The notes below the pieces were generated by a model that worked only from the letters and a program-made list of their open reading frames with translations, made no database searches and was not told the DNA's origin. Of a stretch of DNA of 21,886 bases, positions 7,441 to 20,206 are shown one piece after another. This DNA comes from a virus. Where the stretch lies: the IMG/VR virus record IMGVR_UViG_3300034037_000045, positions 1-21,886 of that record; one strand, given 5' to 3'. The first letter of the stretch is position 1. Each line of letters starts with the position of its first letter. The translations under genes and the position numbers were made by a program.

Positions 7441-10104
7441 TTAATTTGTACCAGTTTTACTAGATGATTTACTACCACTACTTGAACCAATATTTATACC
7501 AACTTCACTGCCAGCATGATATCCCGATGTTGTTATAGGAGTTCCTTGTAATGATGAGAATGTATTTAACAATTGCATCAACTGATCCATTTGCAATCCT
7601 TCTCCATACTCATCAGCGCTTTTTGTAACTGATTGTAAATTACCATAATTCATATAAATATTACCTAAATTAGATATATCTGAAACTCCTTTATTTAGAT
7701 ATGTATTCTTAATTCCTTTAGCTTTCAATACACTGTCGTCAATAGTACTTCTATATGCTCTATCTTTATAACCTATATCAGAATAAACGCCATATATATT
7801 CCCTAATAATTGAGATATAACTCTTGGATCATTCCATTGAGCTTCAACATTCATCTTTCTGTCATATAAATCATTTACAGCTCTCTGTGTTGTAGATAGA
7901 TTAGAAGCTCTCATTGCAGCGTAAGCACTTTGACCTAATCCTGCACTAACTCTCTTCATTTCTTGATTAGCAGCTTCCTTCTGTCTTTCAAGTTCTCTTA
8001 ATTGAGGATTTATATTGTATTCTCTTTTTCTTTTAGCGTAATCAGCTGCTTCACCAAGCCCTCTTTCGTATAGTTGTTTATACGGATTTTCTCTATATGG
8101 AAGACCTTCAGCTTTATCAAACAACCCTCTTCCTATATTGTATAACACAGGAGCAGCTTGAGAGGCTAAATAAGCATACTTCTCATAATCAATATTCTTA
8201 TCTGTTCCATTTTCAACATTTATCTCGTCAGCAAATGGATTTGTAAATCTAGTTTCATCAAGAATTATATCTTTATTATTTCCAGTTGGGATATTGATTT
8301 CAGATGAATTTATAGGATTAGCTGGAACATAAACATCAGACAAAAATTGTTCTTCTGCAGGAGGTCCCATTAATGATGGATCTATATATGCAGTATAATT
8401 GCTATAATCAGTATCGTCAGTATATCCTGTATATGACGAATAATCTTCAGGATCGGTGTATGCTGTATAGTTCTTCTCTCCTCCATCAAATCCGAACTGA
8501 TGCTTCCATTTTTTTGCGTTTCTTGCAAAATTAGCTCTTTTTACAGTAACTGGATCAAACTTGTCTTTATGAGACAAAACATAATTAGCAAACTCTTGAA
8601 CACCCATTCCGTGTCTTTTAGCTTGCTCTGTAAACTTACCTCTGTTCTCAGGTTTTATATATATACCGCCATATTTAAATTGATCTAAATTACCGCCATA
8701 CATCATCATAGGGAGCTGTGCAGGCATTTGTTTAGACTGTCCTTGTTGTTGCATTGCAGCTTGAGCTTGTTGCTGCATCATAGCTTGTTCTTCTGGAGTT
8801 AATTGTTGTTGAGGTTGTTGAGGCTGTGCTTGCTGAGATGACATAGCTTCTCTTAATTCAGGGTATTTCTCCATCAATTTCTCAACGTCTTTCTTCATTT
8901 TCTCTATCCTAACTTCCTCTTGCATCCTCTTTAACTCCTCTTTCTTCTGCTCAACTTCATTCTCAACAATTCTTATAGTATTCTCATCTATAGAATCTCC
9001 AGATTTACCTGTTTTCTTTTTTACCTTGTCTAATTTAGATTCAATGGATTTTACAGCTTCAGCAAATGTTTTGCCCTTAAATTCGCCTTCAGGAACTTTT
9101 AATGTATCTGAAAAAATAGTGTTATCTGTCTTAGACATAGCTTCACCGCCTTCAACTTCAGCTAAAGGTGGAAGTCCAGTTTGAATTACAGGATTACCAT
9201 TTGCATCAACTTTTATACCACCCTGACTATGAGATGGCCCTTCATACGCAATAGAGTTTCCTATCTCTCCTCCGTTTTGATATTTGTTTTTATACATAGA
9301 ACCTCCGTATTTATATTGAACTAGATTTACATTAGGATTTACAGCAGACTGTTGCATTGCCTGAGGTTGATACATCCCGTAATTAGACGTAGCATACATA
9401 CCTTGCATTTGATTTTGCTGCTGATTATTTTGTATAGCCTGCATATTTGCAGCAATGTTATTGACATTACCTACAGTGGATTGCAACATTTGTAAGCCTT
9501 GCATAGGATTGTTTTGAACAACCTGACCTATACCACCAGAACCAGACATTCCAGCAGCCATAGAAGCTATACCTCCAGCTGACTGAACGATATTACCAAC
9601 ATTCATTGCAGTACCACCTCTCTGAAATCCTTCTTTTGTAGTATCAACACCTTCCATTATTTTACCAAAACCTTGTGTTCCAGCTCCTATAGCACCAGCA
9701 ACATTTCCTGTAAGAATACCTCCACCAACACCAGCTGCTATACTTCCTATTCCAGATGAAATGTCTTTTACCTTTTCCTGACCTGAATAAAGCTGTGGTT
9801 GATTAGTGTTTCCAAATAATTGGTTTGTAGTAGATGTTAAACTGTCAGCTATTCCACTTGCTCCTGGTATGAAACTCAATGCTCCTTTACCAACTCCTTG
9901 AGCTAATCCTTGTGTTACATCTGTAAACTCATCTACACCCTTTATATAATCATCTTCTCCATCAACAACTTTACCAAGACCTCTCTCAATAGCATCGCCA
10001 TATCCAACACCAAGAATATCTGTTGTTGATAACACATTACCAGTCGTCTCAAGCGCTGTGTCTAAAGCCTTGCCTAAAAAGATATTCTTAAATTTATTAG
10101 CCAT
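7441..10104 (-). CDS. Cargo-like internal virion protein, low complexity, 887 aa
   Basis: Residues 1-200 are a long Gly/Ala/Ser-rich, mildly hydrophobic region. Residues ~195-260 are rich in Gln, Asn and Met. A conserved-looking PSHSQGGI segment lies at ~288-296, followed by an EVEGGE motif. A Lys/Glu coiled coil covers ~326-422 and a Gln-rich tract ~424-455. Short KYGG motifs occur on both sides of the coiled coil. A Tyr/Thr/Asp-rich repetitive tract covers ~542-575, and the C-terminal third is helical, ending in a Ser/Gly-rich tail. The gene lies 19 bases after the muzzle-like gene, the position of the first cargo protein (C1) in the phage phiCrAss001 virion. The proposed role is packing inside the capsid or tail barrel and ejection on infection. 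No enzymatic motif is visible. Identification rests on composition, motif pattern and position. Confidence 0.82.
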   Translation of the reverse strand: MANKFKNIFLGKALDTALETTGNVLSTTDILGVGYGDAIERGLGKVVDGEDDYIKGVDEFTDVTQGLAQGVGKGALSFIPGASGIADSLTSTTNQLFGNTNQPQLYSGQEKVKDISSGIGSIAAGVGGGILTGNVAGAIGAGTQGFGKIMEGVDTTKEGFQRGGTAMNVGNIVQSAGGIASMAAGMSGSGGIGQVVQNNPMQGLQMLQSTVGNVNNIAANMQAIQNNQQQNQMQGMYATSNYGMYQPQAMQQSAVNPNVNLVQYKYGGSMYKNKYQNGGEIGNSIAYEGPSHSQGGIKVDANGNPVIQTGLPPLAEVEGGEAMSKTDNTIFSDTLKVPEGEFKGKTFAEAVKSIESKLDKVKKKTGKSGDSIDENTIRIVENEVEQKKEELKRMQEEVRIEKMKKDVEKLMEKYPELREAMSSQQAQPQQPQQQLTPEEQAMMQQQAQAAMQQQGQSKQMPAQLPMMMYGGNLDQFKYGGIYIKPENRGKFTEQAKRHGMGVQEFANYVLSHKDKFDPVTVKRANFARNAKKWKHQFGFDGGEKNYTAYTDPEDYSSYTGYTDDTDYSNYTAYIDPSLMGPPAEEQFLSDVYVPANPINSSEINIPTGNNKDIILDETRFTNPFADEINVENGTDKNIDYEKYAYLASQAAPVLYNIGRGLFDKAEGLPYRENPYKQLYERGLGEAADYAKRKREYNINPQLRELERQKEAANQEMKRVSAGLGQSAYAAMRASNLSTTQRAVNDLYDRKMNVEAQWNDPRVISQLLGNIYGVYSDIGYKDRAYRSTIDDSVLKAKGIKNTYLNKGVSDISNLGNIYMNYGNLQSVTKSADEYGEGLQMDQLMQLLNTFSSLQGTPITTSGYHAGSEVGINIGSSSGSKSSSKTGTN
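8381..8483 (-). repeat. Short repetitive Tyr/Thr/Asp-coding tract
   Basis: Within the 887-residue gene, about residues 542-575 repeat units of the form Y-T-(A/G)-Y-(T/I)-D followed by acidic residues (for example NYTAYTDPEDYSSYTGYTD). The DNA repeats are imperfect. Such tracts often form extended, sticky, low-complexity segments; a packing role in the particle is conjecture. Confidence 0.55.
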
Positions 10105-13100: not shown

Positions 13101-14395
13101 TCTTTTACCTCTAAAGTTTTAACTCTATTGAATGATGTTTTTCTTACTGTATAATCAGCAAAATCAATTTCATCTTTTGTAGCTACATCGTAGTTGAGTA
13201 AATGAATAAACTTACCTTCAGGAGATATTGTTTCTTCAGCTATCTTAAACATTCTTGTAGGTGCAGATCCATTTGGATCGTATGTAGTTCTTATAGCATA
13301 CAGCTCTATTGTGTCATAAAACTTACTATCAATATCAGCTTCAAGAGTTATTGTACAGCCTGCATAAGCGAAAGCGCCTTGACTTCCAAAATAATTATAT
13401 ACATCCCAAAAGTCTTTTGAACCTATCAACCTCAATACATGTGTTAAAGGAGCTACATTTGTCTCATCACCAGAAACACTGTTTTTAAGTTTGTATCCAA
13501 ACTGATACATTCCTTCAGTCAGCTTGGACGCTTCATTAGATTCTATCTTTTTTATTTTTATTGGAGGTAATGATACCTTATCTACAAATGTCAATGAAGT
13601 TTCTGGTATAGCAAATAAATTCTCATCCGCAACATTCAATGAGTAAGGCGGATTATAATTGTCAGTCCAATATATCCTTTTTATAGAATCAACCTCAAAT
13701 GAAGTCGTTATATCAACAGAATTTGTTAATTTTAACTTTATATTATCGTTAGTGTATTTTAAGGATATATTGAAATTATCATTTACTCCATCATACTCTA
13801 AATACCATATCTGACAATCTCTTAAATCTCCAGTACAAGTGATTAAAACTATATCATTGCCAAAATTGTCACTTGCTATAACATTAAAACGTGTCTCATC
13901 ATCTTTTTTAGATGATATCTCCTCATGATTGTAATAAGATGAATTTGATATTGACTGTATATTATTGTCATCAGAATATGGTCCTTGACCGTCCTTTGTA
14001 AATACAAATATATCGTTATAATTATATACAGTAAACCCACTACTCTTCAAAAAATTATCTATACTTCTAATCATCTCATCTCTACTCATATTAGAGATGT
14101 CAAGCTGATAGACAGTCCCGTCATTCATACTTATAGTTAGAAGTATAGGAGAACCAGATAACCCTTCAAAAGAATTAACTTCAAGTCTATAATAATTATT
14201 TATAGGTCTGAAGTCAACAGCTTTTCTTGTACCTCTTAAATTAACTATAAATCCCTTCTCATTGTCAGAATTAGTAGATAACACAAAATCTTCAGAATCA
14301 TAATAAACATTATTCTTTACATACGTAGGAGCTGTATCTCTATCTATACCTCCAGCAAAACTATTTATATGTGCGTTATTAGAACCCTTTGCCAT
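10124..14395 (-). CDS. Muzzle/tail stabilisation-like protein, 1423 aa
   Basis: This very large protein is beta-rich, full of Tyr, Asn and Asp, with no membrane segments. The N-terminus holds a SFAGGIDRDTAP motif at about residues 12-23, the F-x-GG-x-x-x-D pattern I associate with phage stabilisation proteins related to P22 gp10. A region near residues 1050-1090 (NRVHYSD, then FRPLNF and an MYAIQEDGVA stretch) resembles beta-propeller blades. The C-terminus carries a WRTQIPRDG motif near 1378. The size and place between a ring-like gene and the first cargo gene match the crAss-like muzzle protein, which forms the distal end of the short tail and gates ejection. It overlaps the upstream ring-like gene by 17 bases, suggesting coupled translation. 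The family assignment is by eye and position; the internal fold is inferred. Confidence 0.85.
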   Translation of the reverse strand: MAKGSNNAHINSFAGGIDRDTAPTYVKNNVYYDSEDFVLSTNSDNEKGFIVNLRGTRKAVDFRPINNYYRLEVNSFEGLSGSPILLTISMNDGTVYQLDISNMSRDEMIRSIDNFLKSSGFTVYNYNDIFVFTKDGQGPYSDDNNIQSISNSSYYNHEEISSKKDDETRFNVIASDNFGNDIVLITCTGDLRDCQIWYLEYDGVNDNFNISLKYTNDNIKLKLTNSVDITTSFEVDSIKRIYWTDNYNPPYSLNVADENLFAIPETSLTFVDKVSLPPIKIKKIESNEASKLTEGMYQFGYKLKNSVSGDETNVAPLTHVLRLIGSKDFWDVYNYFGSQGAFAYAGCTITLEADIDSKFYDTIELYAIRTTYDPNGSAPTRMFKIAEETISPEGKFIHLLNYDVATKDEIDFADYTVRKTSFNRVKTLEVKDNRLFVGNIEESVFNIDFDTRTFRYKSDGTCYAPLDNNGDPLSNYLYNPYNYYVDRFKPVGVTVPDREYKYKSDGVTLGGEGKYISYEFITADSIIDYNNDDPSSVNSVPHITNAHYDSFNTINGYTFKHIYKNPKDPLFNFYFTGYRRGEIYRFGIVFYDNFGNQSPVYYIEDIRMPDPDENGFNLFYKDSNGYTHGKILGLRFTVNIPPDISSKISGYSIVRVPRELEDRTIISDYIKLRGIKLDDLTGSGKDLLLFQDPCDIRSLSDFNKHGYSNWLSDYSDGGTADKGYMFSCLPTIAFDKDIGSRKEYISSIFSNTKYNGSVPYIEGLYAIPFELQASFDDPLNPGNSVLYIHGSNGTTTYSVRKNISVPVIVDQIASHQNLSSNYIQLYSIFNKYYDIGDYSSFDSFNIITYDSNNFFVTINQNETSLLKPIQNHLFFFGRSYNKSIYSTSGSDITSYIDGTNTYNYVWNERGVIYYDNRNQYGGLSLSAIENNEYMYTGHYQKVESSGIYTSDVFGGDVYIGQFDTQIVENGSVYAILGDGSHLYRNSGAVFMIECEHNMYLRHRDTANGDYLFQVDGFTGGKYDQEKLEDYISSNVDIDRVNARTQNVITVFKNRVHYSDVKVNGELTDSFTSFRPLNFRDLDNDKNSITKLVSLNDKMYAIQEDGVAVLAINPKPLINISDGTTLQLGQGDVIADYAYMSEFIGSKHLKSVLKTPYYVYFYDVNSNAIYRVGSNGFDPVSDIKSFRGFFDKDIQKGLMISDNTYQGIGIESVYDNYYNNAIFTIFSYRNKKYVDVNGDSVEMFQNNAETIIFSEKFDALIGRTIFVPRKWITNNNKLLSQSNLYNGNNSIYIHNEGDYDNVYDYKGKESSITFIVNPPGNNPKIFNNIEYYSNVIDTITNSDIFNKTFTAIRVYNNYQDTGKIDLIPDNNIRRRIRVWRTQIPRDGNARIRNPYTFITLYYDNNSTDKITIDSVITYIKETLM

Positions 14396-15200
14396 GCGGA
14401 TTATTGTTTCTTCTTTCTTGGTTATTCAAGTTTTTAAACGAACTGTTGTGTCTGTTAATATTAGGTATAAGTCTCAAGAACGCTCTTTTCCATGACTCAA
14501 GCTGATCAACACTTGGCATGTTTGCAGCAGTTGTAGCAGCACCAATATACCAAGCTCTTTCCTGTGAAATTAAATTGTATCTACCAGCATCCATTTTACC
14601 TTGTATAACCATCTTGAAAGCTATTCTCTCAGCTATATAAGATTTAATGGCATTTCTAACTTTAACATTATCTGGTATCATAGGAGAACCATCTTCGTCA
14701 ATAAGAAATCCCTTATATGAAATCTCAACAAGACCAGAATCGAAATTAGTGAATATATGATTGTTATTTAACTTATACTCAAGCTTTGATGGCACAGGAC
14801 TATTTGTAATCAAATTACTGTTTATAACATCACTACCATCAAACTCAGAGATATATCTTCTCTTACCATCACCAATCTTCCCATAATCAACAGATTTAAA
14901 CACATCTGTAGAACCAATCATTGGTTGTTTTGAATAATATTCTCTTACACTCATAACATAAACCAAATCACAAGGCAACTCACCTCTACCTTTCTTTATC
15001 TCTATAGGATCTGGGTGACACAAATCTTTATTCCCGTCTGTTATTTTATCTACCAACAATGATGGAGAACCAATTAATTCAAGAGCTTCTCCAGCCCATT
15101 CATAAGCATCAGCAATATCTATATCAACATTAAACCCATAGTCCCTATAAACAGAGTTTATTATAGATGTTAGACTTATATATTTTCCGTTTAAAGCCAT
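14379..15200 (-). CDS. Ring protein-like tail component (R1 type), 273 aa
   Basis: The protein begins with a helical segment of the form I-x-S-V-Y-R-D-Y-G (about residues 14-22), followed by W-A-G-E-A-L-E-L-I-G (35-44), then GRGELPCDL at 71-79 and a beta-rich middle. This pattern is familiar from the conserved crAss-like protein encoded next to the muzzle gene, which forms a ring in the tail barrel and may be a distant counterpart of the P22 gp4 adaptor. The last ~30 residues are rich in Asn and Arg and probably disordered. Its ATG overlaps the stop of the 132-residue gene by one base (TAATG), and its end overlaps the muzzle-like start by 17 bases. Numbering it as R1 rests on gene order; the specific ring assignment is an inference. 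Confidence 0.8.
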   Translation of the reverse strand: MALNGKYISLTSIINSVYRDYGFNVDIDIADAYEWAGEALELIGSPSLLVDKITDGNKDLCHPDPIEIKKGRGELPCDLVYVMSVREYYSKQPMIGSTDVFKSVDYGKIGDGKRRYISEFDGSDVINSNLITNSPVPSKLEYKLNNNHIFTNFDSGLVEISYKGFLIDEDGSPMIPDNVKVRNAIKSYIAERIAFKMVIQGKMDAGRYNLISQERAWYIGAATTAANMPSVDQLESWKRAFLRLIPNINRHNSSFKNLNNQERRNNNPHGKGF

Positions 15201-15839: not shown

Positions 15840-16307
15840 TTATTTTTTTTTAGTTTCATAATTTACATACTTACCAGCAATTATATGCTCACTAAATTCC
15901 TTTCTATTACTCCATGATAATTTAAACGATATAGCTCTCTTTTTGTTTCCTAATATTCTGTGTTTCTCAAATCTTATGAAACAGGAATAAAAATCAGAAT
16001 GTCTATTAGTATGATAAATATATTTCTTGTATTTTAATTCAGGGTTTTTCTTCCACAATTCAGCAGTCTTCTGCTTATTTACAGATTTAATATATTTAAT
16101 CTCTCCATCAACTTCACATGCCATAGAACGTTTCATAGCATATATATACCCAAGACCTGCTGGAACCATAAAACTATCTCCTTCAAATATTCTTTTAGCT
16201 ACATGTTTAGCTATCTTTGTTGTAACATGTGAATATGTAGAAAAATCCACATCTAAATCATAATGCTTCTTAAAATATTTGTATATTTGTCTCTTTAATA
16301 TCTTCAT
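15840..16307 (-). CDS. HU/IHF-like DNA-binding protein, 155 aa
   Basis: The first ~60 residues match the layout of the HU/IHF family: a helical N-terminus, a second helix (HVAKRIF, residues 35-41), then GDSFMVPAGLGYIYAMKR at 43-60, comparable to the family's G-(D/E)-x-V-x-(L/I)-x-G-(F/L)-G-x-(F/I) turn. The family is usually ~90-100 residues, so this one has a C-terminal extension; it is very basic and aromatic and could add DNA or protein contacts. crAss-like phages are known to encode IHF-like subunits among their structural genes, and this one sits between two ring-like genes. It may bend or condense DNA during packaging, or be a structural adaptation of that fold. The start is set by the ATGA overlap with the upstream gene. 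The match is weak in detail; a different basic structural protein is possible. Confidence 0.72.
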   Translation of the reverse strand: MKILKRQIYKYFKKHYDLDVDFSTYSHVTTKIAKHVAKRIFEGDSFMVPAGLGYIYAMKRSMACEVDGEIKYIKSVNKQKTAELWKKNPELKYKKYIYHTNRHSDFYSCFIRFEKHRILGNKKRAISFKLSWSNRKEFSEHIIAGKYVNYETKKK

Positions 16308-17002
16308 AATTTAACGTCTGACTTTGAATTATTTTGAGTATCACCAGTTTTTATCTCAGACTCAATAGCTATGGCAAGATTAGATTTTAGTACATAATCT
16401 TTCATGTAAGGTATCATCCATTCTTTAACAGGATACCTCATATCGTCTGAATAACATTTATCCTCTTCAGAAATGCAATTGTTGAATTGAGATAAGTCTT
16501 CTGGATTTTCAAATACGCCTTCTACTATTATTTTAGACAATCCATTAACTAAAATGTTTTTTGAATATATGTAAATATAACCATTATGTAAAAATGCATA
16601 TATCAATTTATTATCAAACTTACCGCTACCAACATAAGGAACCCTGTTTCTATCTACAAATGTAAATGGCTTGTCAATCATATCAACACTTGCAACCCTT
16701 GTAATTGCAGGTCTTGTATGAAGCTCTATAGTAGTAGGTATCTTTTCAGTAGTCCTAACTATATTACATCCTAAAGGTATATCGCAACATTCGCTTCTAT
16801 CAACATTAACAACATCAATACACAACGTCTGCTTTATATCTTCATCAATAGTTCTAAATTTATTAAGCTCATTTCTTATTAGCAAAGCCCTCTGCACACG
16901 TATCCAATACTTCACATGATCTATTGTTACCCTTGTGTCATCTGATAAATAAGGCTTTGCAGTTGTTAATATGTCGTATGCTATTTCGTTTAAAGTTGCC
17001 AT
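16304..17002 (-). CDS. Ring/adaptor-like tail protein, 232 aa
   Basis: The N-terminal helices (LNEIAYDIL at 4-12; W-I-R-V-Q-R-A-L-L-I-R-N-E-L-N-K at 33-48) and a Cys-containing motif ECCDIPLGCNIVRT (71-84) match a conserved protein of crAss-like phage structural clusters thought to form part of the portal-to-tail ring stack. The centre is beta-rich; the C-terminal helix is followed by a polar tail. The four Cys residues (61, 72, 73, 79) could form disulphides or bind metal, but no standard metal site is evident. It begins one base after the phosphoesterase gene and ends in a 4-base ATGA overlap with the HU/IHF-like gene. Which ring it represents cannot be decided from sequence alone. Confidence 0.8.
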   Translation of the reverse strand: MATLNEIAYDILTTAKPYLSDDTRVTIDHVKYWIRVQRALLIRNELNKFRTIDEDIKQTLCIDVVNVDRSECCDIPLGCNIVRTTEKIPTTIELHTRPAITRVASVDMIDKPFTFVDRNRVPYVGSGKFDNKLIYAFLHNGYIYIYSKNILVNGLSKIIVEGVFENPEDLSQFNNCISEEDKCYSDDMRYPVKEWMIPYMKDYVLKSNLAIAIESEIKTGDTQNNSKSDVKL

Positions 17003-17003
17003 A

Positions 17004-18146
17004 TTATTTTATATTACACATTAAATTGGCTTCAAGACCTGTTTTTTTATTCCATATAAAAGCTTCAGCTGTTTTAGGAACGCCAATCCAACCGAAGTCA
17101 TTATGCCATTTATCTTGAGATGAAATACTTCTTAAAAACCTAACTGTACATCCAATAAAATCTTTACCTCTTAAAAATTTATATTCTCTTTTATGATGTA
17201 TATCTCCAAGATAAAACTCTCTGTATTTAGTTTTACTCCACATCTCTTTCTCTTCCTCAGCCATCATTAAAGGTAAATGATCTATCTTCAACTTCTCCTT
17301 GTCTCCGTGAGCAAAACCAAACATATTCTCTCCATACATATAATACTTTCTCTGCTTTCTATCACTGTCAATAGTTACTCTGTTATTTTTCTCATAAGCT
17401 ATAGATAGAGCTATCCCAAGAAAATTAACTTTATCTTCATCGTGATTACCTCCAATTACAGGGACTAATACCTTTGCATATTGAGATGCTTTGTCTATAC
17501 ATCTTCTATATAACTCTAATCCCTTTTCAAAACTAACAAAAAAATTCTCCGAATGTCCAACGTATGTTCCCTTTTTTGTATGACCAGAATCTGAATTTGT
17601 ATTCCAAAAATCAGATCCTACAGGAAATATTATTAATTCAGGATTATATGATAATGCACTTGACAATAAAGAATCAAACGATTTCTCAAATCTTTTAATA
17701 TTGTCCTCTATAGATCCGTTTTCTTGAATAAATGCTATCTTGTCTATATGAGCGTCAAATATGTTTATTATAGCACAATTATCTTTATGCTTAACGTTTT
17801 TGTGATAGAACGGCTTTGGAGGCTTATAATTAACTAAATTATTGTTTATATACTCTACAATTCTATCTGTATCTATCTTCTCTAAATCATACTGGATACT
17901 TTCTCTCCATTGACCATCGTAAATCTGCCATCTTTTTATTCTTGTTATTTCAGATTTTTCATCAAACCTCTCTCTCTTTTTAGATTCTGATTTCAAATAA
18001 TTCCTCCAAACAGACCTGGCATACTCACCTCTATCACTTTTGCTTTTGTCTTGAGCTAAACCATATAAATCAGCAAGCTCAGACCAAGTCATATTTTTAC
18101 CATTGTTCTTTATATGTTCAATTAAAAGCTTTTTTCTATCTTTCAT
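17004..18146 (-). CDS. HTH-metallophosphoesterase (calcineurin-like), 380 aa
   Basis: The C-terminal two thirds carry the calcineurin-like metallophosphoesterase signature in order: D131-x-H133, GSD with D179, GNHDE with N234, H235 and D236, H280 in an AHGD context, and a final GDIHH at 314-318. These residues normally bind two metal ions and cleave phosphate esters, including phosphodiesters in DNA-processing members. In the last motif the first His of the usual GHxH is Asp (D315). Residues ~1-60 contain a helix-turn-helix-like segment (WSELADLYGLAQ) followed by a basic linker, suggesting nucleic-acid binding. There is no signal peptide. It lies 2 bases after the phospholipase gene and 1 base before a ring-like gene. 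Possible roles include DNA end processing or a late regulatory function; the substrate cannot be read from the sequence. Confidence 0.88.
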   Translation of the reverse strand: MKDRKKLLIEHIKNNGKNMTWSELADLYGLAQDKSKSDRGEYARSVWRNYLKSESKKRERFDEKSEITRIKRWQIYDGQWRESIQYDLEKIDTDRIVEYINNNLVNYKPPKPFYHKNVKHKDNCAIINIFDAHIDKIAFIQENGSIEDNIKRFEKSFDSLLSSALSYNPELIIFPVGSDFWNTNSDSGHTKKGTYVGHSENFFVSFEKGLELYRRCIDKASQYAKVLVPVIGGNHDEDKVNFLGIALSIAYEKNNRVTIDSDRKQRKYYMYGENMFGFAHGDKEKLKIDHLPLMMAEEEKEMWSKTKYREFYLGDIHHKREYKFLRGKDFIGCTVRFLRSISSQDKWHNDFGWIGVPKTAEAFIWNKKTGLEANLMCNIK

Positions 18147-18148
18147 AA

Positions 18149-19003
18149 TTATTTATTTGATAGAATCTTCAATGCAGTTCTATAGCCATTAGATATATTG
18201 TTAGCTATATCTAAAGAAATGAAAGAAGATATCTCTATATTTAATGGACTATAAGGTCTTATCACAGTATGTTTTACGCCGCTTCTCTCCAAAAGTTTTA
18301 TATCCTTATTTATGTGACCAGAAGATATTATATCCATTATCCTGTCTGCTACTTGTAGTATATTACCATCATTAAATGTAGAAGCATTAAGTCTTTCTGA
18401 ATGAGGTGTTATCAATACTACCTCATCTAATCTGTCGTAAAACTTGTCAAGAGCAAATGACACACCTGCTGAGTCTATTAAACCACCATCAAGATATGGA
18501 GCATCGTCAACATGCTTTATAGGCATTATTAAAGGTATTGAAGATGAAGCTATAACATAATCCAAGAAACCAGGAGAATACTTGCTGTGATATTCTATAC
18601 CGCCAGATGATAAGTTTACACAACCTACATATATGTCTATATTAGACTTGTAAATATTACTTTGTGATACTATGCTTTTTAATTTTTTTTCAAGAGGACC
18701 AAAAGATGTTAACGAAGGATCTTTTGAAAAAATTATATCTTTTGCTAATTTAAATGTGCTTTTTTTTCTTACTATAGAATCTGGTGACTTTATGTTTTTT
18801 AACCAAAATGAAACTAATTCAGAGCAGGACTCTTGAAATGATTTACCTTCACCAGTAAGATTTGTTATAAAGGTTCCGTTTAAAGATCCTACACTTATAC
18901 CTACAATTATATCAGGAACAAAACCAGTTTCTGATAATGCTTTTAATGCTCCAGCTTGCCAAGAGCCTTTTACAGAGCCACCTCCTAATATTAATGCTTT
19001 CAT
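18149..19003 (-). CDS. Patatin-like phospholipase, 284 aa
   Basis: All core patatin features are present: the oxyanion-hole loop GGGSVKG (7-13), the nucleophile elbow GISVGS with Ser37, an ASSSIPLIMP stretch at 152-161, and the catalytic Asp172 in DGG (172-174). Patatins are Ser-Asp dyad lipid acyl hydrolases that release fatty acids from phospholipids. Length suits a single-domain bacterial enzyme of this family. No signal peptide or membrane segment is visible, so it would act in the cytoplasm unless released by the holin or carried in the particle. The ATG follows the holin stop by one base (TAGCATG), with an AAGGA-like sequence upstream. Pairing with a holin suggests membrane destruction at lysis; packaging in the virion is an alternative. 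The enzyme class is clear, its biological role is inferred. Confidence 0.92.
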   Translation of the reverse strand: MKALILGGGSVKGSWQAGALKALSETGFVPDIIVGISVGSLNGTFITNLTGEGKSFQESCSELVSFWLKNIKSPDSIVRKKSTFKLAKDIIFSKDPSLTSFGPLEKKLKSIVSQSNIYKSNIDIYVGCVNLSSGGIEYHSKYSPGFLDYVIASSSIPLIMPIKHVDDAPYLDGGLIDSAGVSFALDKFYDRLDEVVLITPHSERLNASTFNDGNILQVADRIMDIISSGHINKDIKLLERSGVKHTVIRPYSPLNIEISSFISLDIANNISNGYRTALKILSNK

Positions 19004-19004
19004 G

Positions 19005-19526
19005 CTAATCCTTTTTATGTTTTATGAATTTATTTACAACCTTCAATATATTTTCAGCAGCTTTATCACCAGAATCTCTCCTGTTTTCAAGAAATGATAC
19101 CACCAATTGCAGGAACAAAAAATAAACAACAATCTCATGTATATAACCAACTATATTTACATCTATACCATAAAATGTGTATGTGGTTGAATATTTTGAA
19201 AACATGTTTAATGCAGAAATAAATATAGTGTATAACACCATTTTTATTATAGTTCTGCCAATTTTATTGCTTTTCAACTCCTCATCTCTGTATCTTACAG
19301 ACGCTATTACTCCAGACACGAAATCAGCTATAAACATTAATATTATTGACAAATACAGGAATACATTTAATCCTGTAAAAAATTCTATATAATAAGAAAG
19401 TGTTGCAAATACAATACTTAACAATATAGTAAATTTAATATATAAAGGATGTATCATGTCGTATATAAATTCACTTGATTTCTTATATCCAAATACGTAT
19501 AATATTTCAGCAACTAACCCTCTCAT
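19005..19526 (-). CDS. Phage holin-like membrane protein (phage_holin_4 type), 173 aa
   Basis: Four hydrophobic segments are visible at about residues 30-48, 54-75, 93-110 and 123-146. Between the second and third lies ADFVSGVIASVRYRDEELKS (67-86), closely resembling the D-x-x-(T/S)-G-x-x-x-A ... (E/D)-L-x-S-x-K-x-G-R pattern of the phage_holin_4_1 (Cph1/TcdE-like) family. The C-terminus is a charged cytoplasmic-type tail ending in Lys residues, as in many holins. The protein would form lesions in the inner membrane to time lysis. It starts in a 4-base ATGA overlap with the upstream gene and is followed after one base by the phospholipase. No endolysin is recognisable in the window. A different membrane role is possible, but the family pattern is good. 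Confidence 0.85.
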   Translation of the reverse strand: MRGLVAEILYVFGYKKSSEFIYDMIHPLYIKFTILLSIVFATLSYYIEFFTGLNVFLYLSIILMFIADFVSGVIASVRYRDEELKSNKIGRTIIKMVLYTIFISALNMFSKYSTTYTFYGIDVNIVGYIHEIVVYFLFLQLVVSFLENRRDSGDKAAENILKVVNKFIKHKKD

Positions 19527-20206
19527 AACGGTCTATATCCATAATATAATAAATCCTTAATCTCTTTTATCAACGATGGATAATCTCCATTTGTTAATAC
19601 TATACCAGATTCTGCTAATCCAGCACCAACATAATCATTAGTTGATTCAACATAATCCATTATACCAGGAATAGTATCCCAGTAATTTAAACCAAGAATA
19701 CCATCGTTTTTATATAACGAAATAAGTCCAGAAACATTAATCATCAAATTAGTAGCATCTTGAAATGACATGTATTTTGGAATAATCAACTTAACGTAAC
19801 CCCATCTTTCTCTACAAGATTCGTCTGATTTTCTATTTTGCTCAAAAAATAATCTCAAAAGCTCTGCATTAGCTTCTTCTAACGTCATGCCTTTAGACAT
19901 TAGATGCGATATATAGTTTGAATTATTTTGATCTAAAGTCAAGCTTCTGTCTCTTGCATGATACTCTATTGCCACATCCTTTTCATCACTTGTTAAATTA
20001 TCCCAGCCTTTAGCTGTAACCTGCTCTTCTATACCTATTTTCACTTGCATAAAATCGTCTGCACAACACAAAGACTGATCCCATTCAAATATATTATCAG
20101 TAACATCATCGTAAATAGTTAAATCCAATGTTTCTGATATTGTATAAAAATCCTTATTCTCAGAAGAAACAACTAAATACCCTATTTTCTTTTTACCTAA
20201 TTTCAT
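19523..20206 (-). CDS. Uncharacterised tail-region protein, 227 aa
   Basis: I do not recognise a domain. The N-terminus is beta-like, then come a CC pair (near residues 47-48), a polar helical middle with a GWDNLTSDEKDVAIEYHARD segment, and a second helical part containing KGMTLEEANAELLRLF. The C-terminal third is hydrophobic and mixed, ending in YYGYRPL. There are no membrane segments or signal peptide. Four-base ATGA overlaps join it to both the 183-residue gene and the holin. The position between fibre-like genes and the lysis-like genes suggests a tail or host-interaction role (inference). Confidence 0.7.
   Translation of the reverse strand: MKLGKKKIGYLVVSSENKDFYTISETLDLTIYDDVTDNIFEWDQSLCCADDFMQVKIGIEEQVTAKGWDNLTSDEKDVAIEYHARDRSLTLDQNNSNYISHLMSKGMTLEEANAELLRLFFEQNRKSDESCRERWGYVKLIIPKYMSFQDATNLMINVSGLISLYKNDGILGLNYWDTIPGIMDYVESTNDYVGAGLAESGIVLTNGDYPSLIKEIKDLLYYGYRPL

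Follow-up and report, generated by a model that had tools for sequence, protein, structure and literature searches.

Lysis of Gram-negative hosts by phages is usually explained by the action of a holin, an endolysin, and a spanin or a disruptin. That membrane lipids are attacked enzymatically during this process has, to our knowledge, only been proposed, and only for phage WO. The presence of a holin gene directly followed by the gene of a patatin-like phospholipase in a fragment of a crAss-like phage raises the question of whether the patatin participates in lysis, and if so, whether it acts beside a wall hydrolase or in its place.

The gene pair is found in the IMG/VR record IMGVR_UViG_3300034037_000045, a fragment of 21,886 nt (21.9 kb) that was analyzed in its full length and is referred to here as the window. 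The presence of CrAss_Ring_1, CrAss_Ring_2 and crAss_MUZ (muzzle protein), identified with Pfam and placed in the conserved order, assigns it to the crAss-like phages (Crassvirales). The following genes are all encoded on the minus strand: the crAss tail ring protein 1 (14379-15200; CrAss_Ring_1, 1.3e-53), the crAss tail ring protein 2 (16304-17002; CrAss_Ring_2, 3.8e-45), which served as the synteny anchor, a metallophosphatase or DNA repair exonuclease-like protein (17004-18146; phrog_704, 4e-53), the patatin (18149-19003), the holin (19005-19526), and a 227-aa protein without a Pfam family (19523-20206). The first-pass annotation had described a four-segment holin-like gene directly coupled to a patatin with an intact catalytic dyad, and these features were confirmed; both genes are real, and a single base separates them. 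At the junction, AAGGATTAGCATG, the TAG stop codon of the holin is followed by one base and the ATG of the patatin, and a Shine-Dalgarno-like sequence (AAGGA, 19009-19013, minus strand) lies within the 3' end of the holin gene. A scan for promoters and terminators gave sites that were no more numerous than in shuffled sequences.

The holin has 173 aa with approximately four hydrophobic segments by hydropathy, and matches PF05105 (Phage_holin_4_1) with an E value of 8.5e-11 and 42.4 bits against a cut-off of 22.2; its match to the NCBIfam model TIGR01593 (holin_tox_secr, 1.6e-8) is below the cut-off. The predicted phospholipase has 284 aa and no evident signal peptide, and matches PF01734 across the catalytic domain (E value 1.2e-22, 81.5 bits against a cut-off of 27.7). 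Its motifs are intact, i.e. the oxyanion motif GGGSxKG at residues 7-13, the nucleophile motif GxSxG at 35-39, which includes Ser37, and DGG at 172-174, which includes Asp172; the codons of these predicted catalytic residues are located at 18893-18895 (Ser37, in GISVG) and 18488-18490 (Asp172), on the minus strand. The AlphaFold model (pLDDT 88, pTM 0.88) shows a patatin fold, and its best matches in the PDB are a lipase complex, AbCapV, PlpD and plant patatin, with E values from 1e-10 to 1e-15. Both residues are kept in the 78 phage patatins that were aligned (78/78), a count in which the Ser37 motif belonged to the search pattern and the position of Asp172 did not; hence, a loss of the dyad in homologues, which would have weakened the proposal, was not observed.

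As the first-pass annotation had remarked, no endolysin is seen near the pair: neither an endolysin nor a spanin was recognized among the main proteins of the window, or by local profiles in open reading frames of at least 40 aa. Given that the window is a 21.9-kb fragment, this absence is uninformative by itself and a genome-wide absence cannot be claimed. The 227-aa protein was considered as a candidate endolysin and discarded, since it has no Pfam match and its homologues adjoin fibre-like genes.

The genomic context of the pair was compared with that of other crAss-like phages. Single-protein scans of viral contigs with the patatin, the ring protein 1 and the metallophosphatase gave no near relatives, and alignment-based scans were needed; these yielded 22 loci of crAss-like phages that encode ring protein 2, to which nearer loci were added later. 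In about 12 crAss-like relatives, a lysis module is located between the tail-fibre genes and a block formed by an exonuclease or metallophosphatase gene and ring protein 2. The hydrolase in this slot is a GH19 enzyme (Glyco_hydro_19) in phi14:2, L026 and L024 (the last one just below the cut-off), an Amidase_3 in L020, a Glucosaminidase in L021, and a Peptidase_M15 in L016, L018, L019 and L225; in L017 and L025 the position of the hydrolase is occupied by a DUF5675 protein. Amidase_2 was not found in the records of seven relatives. In most cases small membrane proteins are encoded together with the hydrolase, as is a protein whose N terminus has a membrane anchor or resembles a lipobox; some of the latter proteins have a further membrane segment at the C terminus, as unimolecular spanins do. 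Such spanin-like proteins, which combine a lipobox-like N terminus with a C-terminal segment of this kind, are encoded at L016:8442-8948, L018:1239-1760 and L019:6881-7402, close to an M15 peptidase. Phages of the Fpv3 type have a PF05105 holin inside the slot; in L130 the lysis genes are a few kilobases upstream of the slot position, and in L131-L133 the slot includes only a small membrane protein. It was also observed that the hydrolase families swap while the flanks stay (slot upstream of ring protein 2 in L010, L016-L026, L033, L049, L050, L221 and L225), and that the slot is closed by a metallophosphatase gene in some phages and by a DnaQ-like exonuclease gene in others. The slot of the window holds the holin and the patatin; here, the holin adjoins a candidate lysis enzyme at the site where the relatives keep their lysis module.

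None of the 22 crAss-like records of the first scan has a patatin, but a scan with a patatin profile identified two relatives that do, L049 (a 73-kb contig) and L050 (a 56-kb contig); the Crassvirales relatives examined outside the group formed by these two and the window are devoid of it. The three phages have in common ring protein 2, ring protein 1, the metallophosphatase, the gene of the 227-aa protein, which stands at the fibre side of the slot (1.2e-12 in L049, 2.8e-14 in L050), and the patatin in the same slot. The patatins of L049 and L050 are 37% and 35% identical to that of the window, and identity across the three phages is 35-39%. In L050 the gene order is: a spanin-like protein, a PF05105 holin (2.7e-5, above the cut-off), a 68-aa membrane protein, the patatin, DUF5675, the metallophosphatase and ring protein 2. 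In L049 it is: a spanin-like protein, a membrane protein, the patatin, DUF5675, the metallophosphatase and ring protein 2; here, a 224-aa membrane protein without a family match replaces the PF05105 holin, and the stop codon of the patatin overlaps the start of DUF5675 (TAATG). Accordingly, conservation of the pairing in relatives, which had been put forward as a check, holds in part: the patatin is kept in the slot of both phages, next to a PF05105 holin in L050, but the group is small. No homologue of DUF5675 or of the spanin-like protein was found in the 21.9-kb window.

DUF5675 is probably the wall enzyme that stands beside the patatin in L049 and L050, a candidacy based on the hydrolase position that it occupies in L017 and L025. 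Its motif, HxGN...D..GC, gives an L,D-transpeptidase-like impression and nothing beyond an impression; a structural identification did not succeed, as the model had a pLDDT of 59.8 and no significant PDB match.

In trees of ring proteins 1 and 2, the window, L049 and L050 group together with moderate support (ultrafast bootstrap 81 and 73). Their patatins form a clade with that of a fourth phage, L048 (SH-like 0.984), and this clade joins the chromosomal patatins of Bacteroidota, of which 40 were sampled (SH-like 0.999). The patatin of L048 is the closest to that of the window (54%), but no crAss ring protein was detected in this phage, nor a Pfam-recognized lysis gene beside the patatin. L048 also encodes ribonucleotide reductase-like genes, and its patatin is about 2 kb away from a lytic-transglycosylase-like gene on the opposite strand that has no Pfam match (L048:5613-6476 and 8683-9390). 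The simplest history would be that the gene was captured from a Bacteroidota host, passed between phages, and was kept in the lysis slot by one lineage of crAss-like phages.

Beyond this clade, several phage patatins have neighbors of interest, among them those of two unrelated phages. In the 484-kb huge phage LR756508, the stop codon of an endolysin (GH108 and PG_binding_3) overlaps the start of the patatin (TAATG), and in L099 an endolysin (PG_binding_1 and Peptidase_M15_4) is immediately upstream of the patatin; in L051, L066 and L115, small membrane proteins and a signal-peptide/coiled-coil/membrane-anchor protein are just upstream. Nevertheless, phage patatins at large were tested for an association with lysis genes, and none was found: among 141 neighbors at about 65 other phage patatin loci, the only recognized peptidoglycan-degrading family was in the endolysin of L099, and no holin family appeared among the matches listed. 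The remaining neighbors are mainly proteins without an assigned family, homing endonucleases and tail-type genes, and fibre or tail-type genes occur within four genes of the patatin at about 31 of the 78 loci. For this reason, a role in lysis is argued for the lineage of the window from its slot, and not from phage patatins as a whole. Beside 80 cellular homologues obtained from the scan, mostly from Bacteroidota, there were no matches to lysis profiles (0/80); genes resembling those of ribosome recycling factor and uridylate kinase recur beside the chromosomal Bacteroidota patatins. Some additional features of the phage patatins were noticed. Many large uncultured phages encode one (L043, L063, L064, L076, L103 and others); the gene often follows tail-type genes directly and sometimes adjoins GIY-YIG or HNH homing endonucleases, and three contigs (L097, L105 and L106) carry two patatin-family genes, adjacent or with one gene in between. 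Four GenBank entries named 'Bacteriophage sp.', MT835490 (L005), MT835578 (L008), MT835771 (L006) and MT837002 (L009), were discounted given that the other genes around the patatin look bacterial, e.g. a DNA polymerase I-like gene.

From this comparison of sequences, we consider that on balance the pair would form the lysis module, or the part of that module left here, in a crAss-like phage whose host is probably a member of the Bacteroidota, and that the patatin would be an accessory lysis enzyme acting beside a wall hydrolase. The holin would gather in the inner membrane and, at a set time, open it. The patatin would be made in the cytoplasm, possibly by translational coupling to the holin, and its Ser/Asp dyad is predicted to deacylate phospholipids; the inner leaflet of the inner membrane would be its first target, and once the holin has opened this membrane the enzyme could reach the inner face of the outer membrane and help to disrupt it. 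Failure of the membrane remnants would then release the phage. The wall would be degraded by a partner, probably DUF5675 in L049 and L050; in the window phage it would have to be encoded outside the fragment or be unrecognized. An accessory role is preferred over a replacement because DUF5675 and the spanin-like protein adjoin the patatins of L049 and L050, and because the GH108 gene overlaps the patatin in LR756508. Counting against a role in lysis, most other phage patatins have no recognized lysis neighbors and are often near tail-fibre genes, the closest patatin (L048) is outside a recognized lysis module, L049 has no PF05105 holin, and the support in the trees is moderate. We know of no phospholipase activity for this branch of patatins.

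The same observations on L048 and on the majority of phage patatins, together with the grouping of this branch with the chromosomal Bacteroidota patatins, would suit a captured host housekeeping enzyme that alters phospholipid turnover inside the cell (membrane supply, signaling or counter-defence) and that stands beside lysis genes by chance. We consider this unlikely, since the patatin occupies this late slot in each of three crAss-like phages that have diverged, as judged from the identity of their patatins, and is tightly joined to holin or DUF5675 genes. The proximity to fibre genes, which directly precede the slot in the window as they adjoin many phage patatins, could instead indicate an entry enzyme, packaged in the virion or attached to it, that cuts host phospholipids at genome ejection. 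This alternative, also raised by the first-pass annotation, was rated as less likely and seems to us rather improbable: the products of the corresponding slot of phi14:2 (gp86-gp90) carry no annotation of detection in virions by mass spectrometry, in contrast with those of most genes on either side, and the overlaps with the DUF5675 and GH108 genes in relatives point to lysis.

It is very unlikely that the phage needs no wall hydrolase of its own and that lysis is achieved by the holin and the phospholipase, the patatin replacing the endolysin and the spanin. Such a replacement has been proposed in similar form for phage WO (PMC9203015), and would agree with a slot that holds only a holin and a patatin where relatives carry a wall hydrolase, and with the lack of DUF5675 and spanin-like homologues in the window. 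However, L049 and L050 retain both of these proteins beside the patatin, LR756508 and L099 retain an endolysin, and the window is a fragment. In addition, Bacteroidota possess peptidoglycan. From the original idea of a lipase-based lysis cassette, the location of the pair in the lysis slot, the presence of the patatin in two relatives and the conserved dyad are supported, and the replacement of the endolysin is not. Finally, AbCapV among the best fold matches, together with low-scoring hits to models of CBASS lipases and PADLOC phospholipases, might suggest that the phage carries a CBASS-like phospholipase effector (CapV); this is so improbable that it was rejected, given a score of 25.8 bits against an NCBIfam cut-off of 200 and no cyclase recognized among the neighboring genes.

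The accessory lysis enzyme proposed here has partial counterparts in other phages. The phage WO of Wolbachia has a putative patatin-based lytic cassette beside the tail module (PMC9203015; also PMC3173496), and in related undaviruses the corresponding position is taken by a GH108 endolysin (PMC9203015). As in the window, the patatin of WO adjoins a holin-like gene near tail genes (PMC9203015); in contrast, the two patatins show no BLAST similarity at 1e-3, their nucleophile motifs differ (GTSTG in WO, GISVG in the window), and the holin-like protein of WO has one membrane segment instead of being a PF05105 holin. The host of WO has been reported to lack detected peptidoglycan, and the cassette itself is only proposed. 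In strain WOVitA1 (L045:40605-42270), a phospholipase D gene on the opposite strand is present between the patatin and its holin-like neighbor. LysB of mycobacteriophages, the best studied lipolytic lysis enzyme, acts in the third step of lysis, as spanins do (PMC5707550). Like the window patatin, whose activity is predicted, it is a lipolytic Ser hydrolase of a lytic cassette; unlike it, LysB is an alpha/beta-hydrolase that acts as a mycolyl-arabinogalactan esterase on mycobacterial envelopes, whereas the window encodes a patatin in a probable Gram-negative system. The slot of the Cellulophaga phage phi14:2 has the same position, from fibre genes to the metallophosphatase-ring protein 2 block, but its products include a GH19 hydrolase and a protein of 192 aa with a membrane anchor (gp87 and gp88) and no patatin. 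The annotated PF05105 holin of the Flavobacterium phage laban6-1 is 28% identical to that of the window and its gene overlaps the next lysis gene, which encodes an N-acetylmuramoyl-L-alanine amidase, whereas the partner in the window is the patatin.

In the library searched, no paper names both crAss-like phages and patatin. After phage WO, the window would provide a second case of a patatin located in a lysis slot, and the two cases seem to be independent. The order Crassvirales has cultured members (crAss001, phi14:2 and DAC15), so that the idea of a lysis step directed to membrane lipids becomes easier to test, and the definition of the slot helps to locate the lysis genes of uncultured crAss-like phages. 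It is conceivable, and we suggest it tentatively, that a small crAss-like clade recruited a patatin from its Bacteroidota host and dedicated it to the destruction of membranes at lysis. Such a protein would be the counterpart of LysB in Gram-negative systems, acting in the third step of lysis, and in the window phage it may have taken over part of the role of the spanin.
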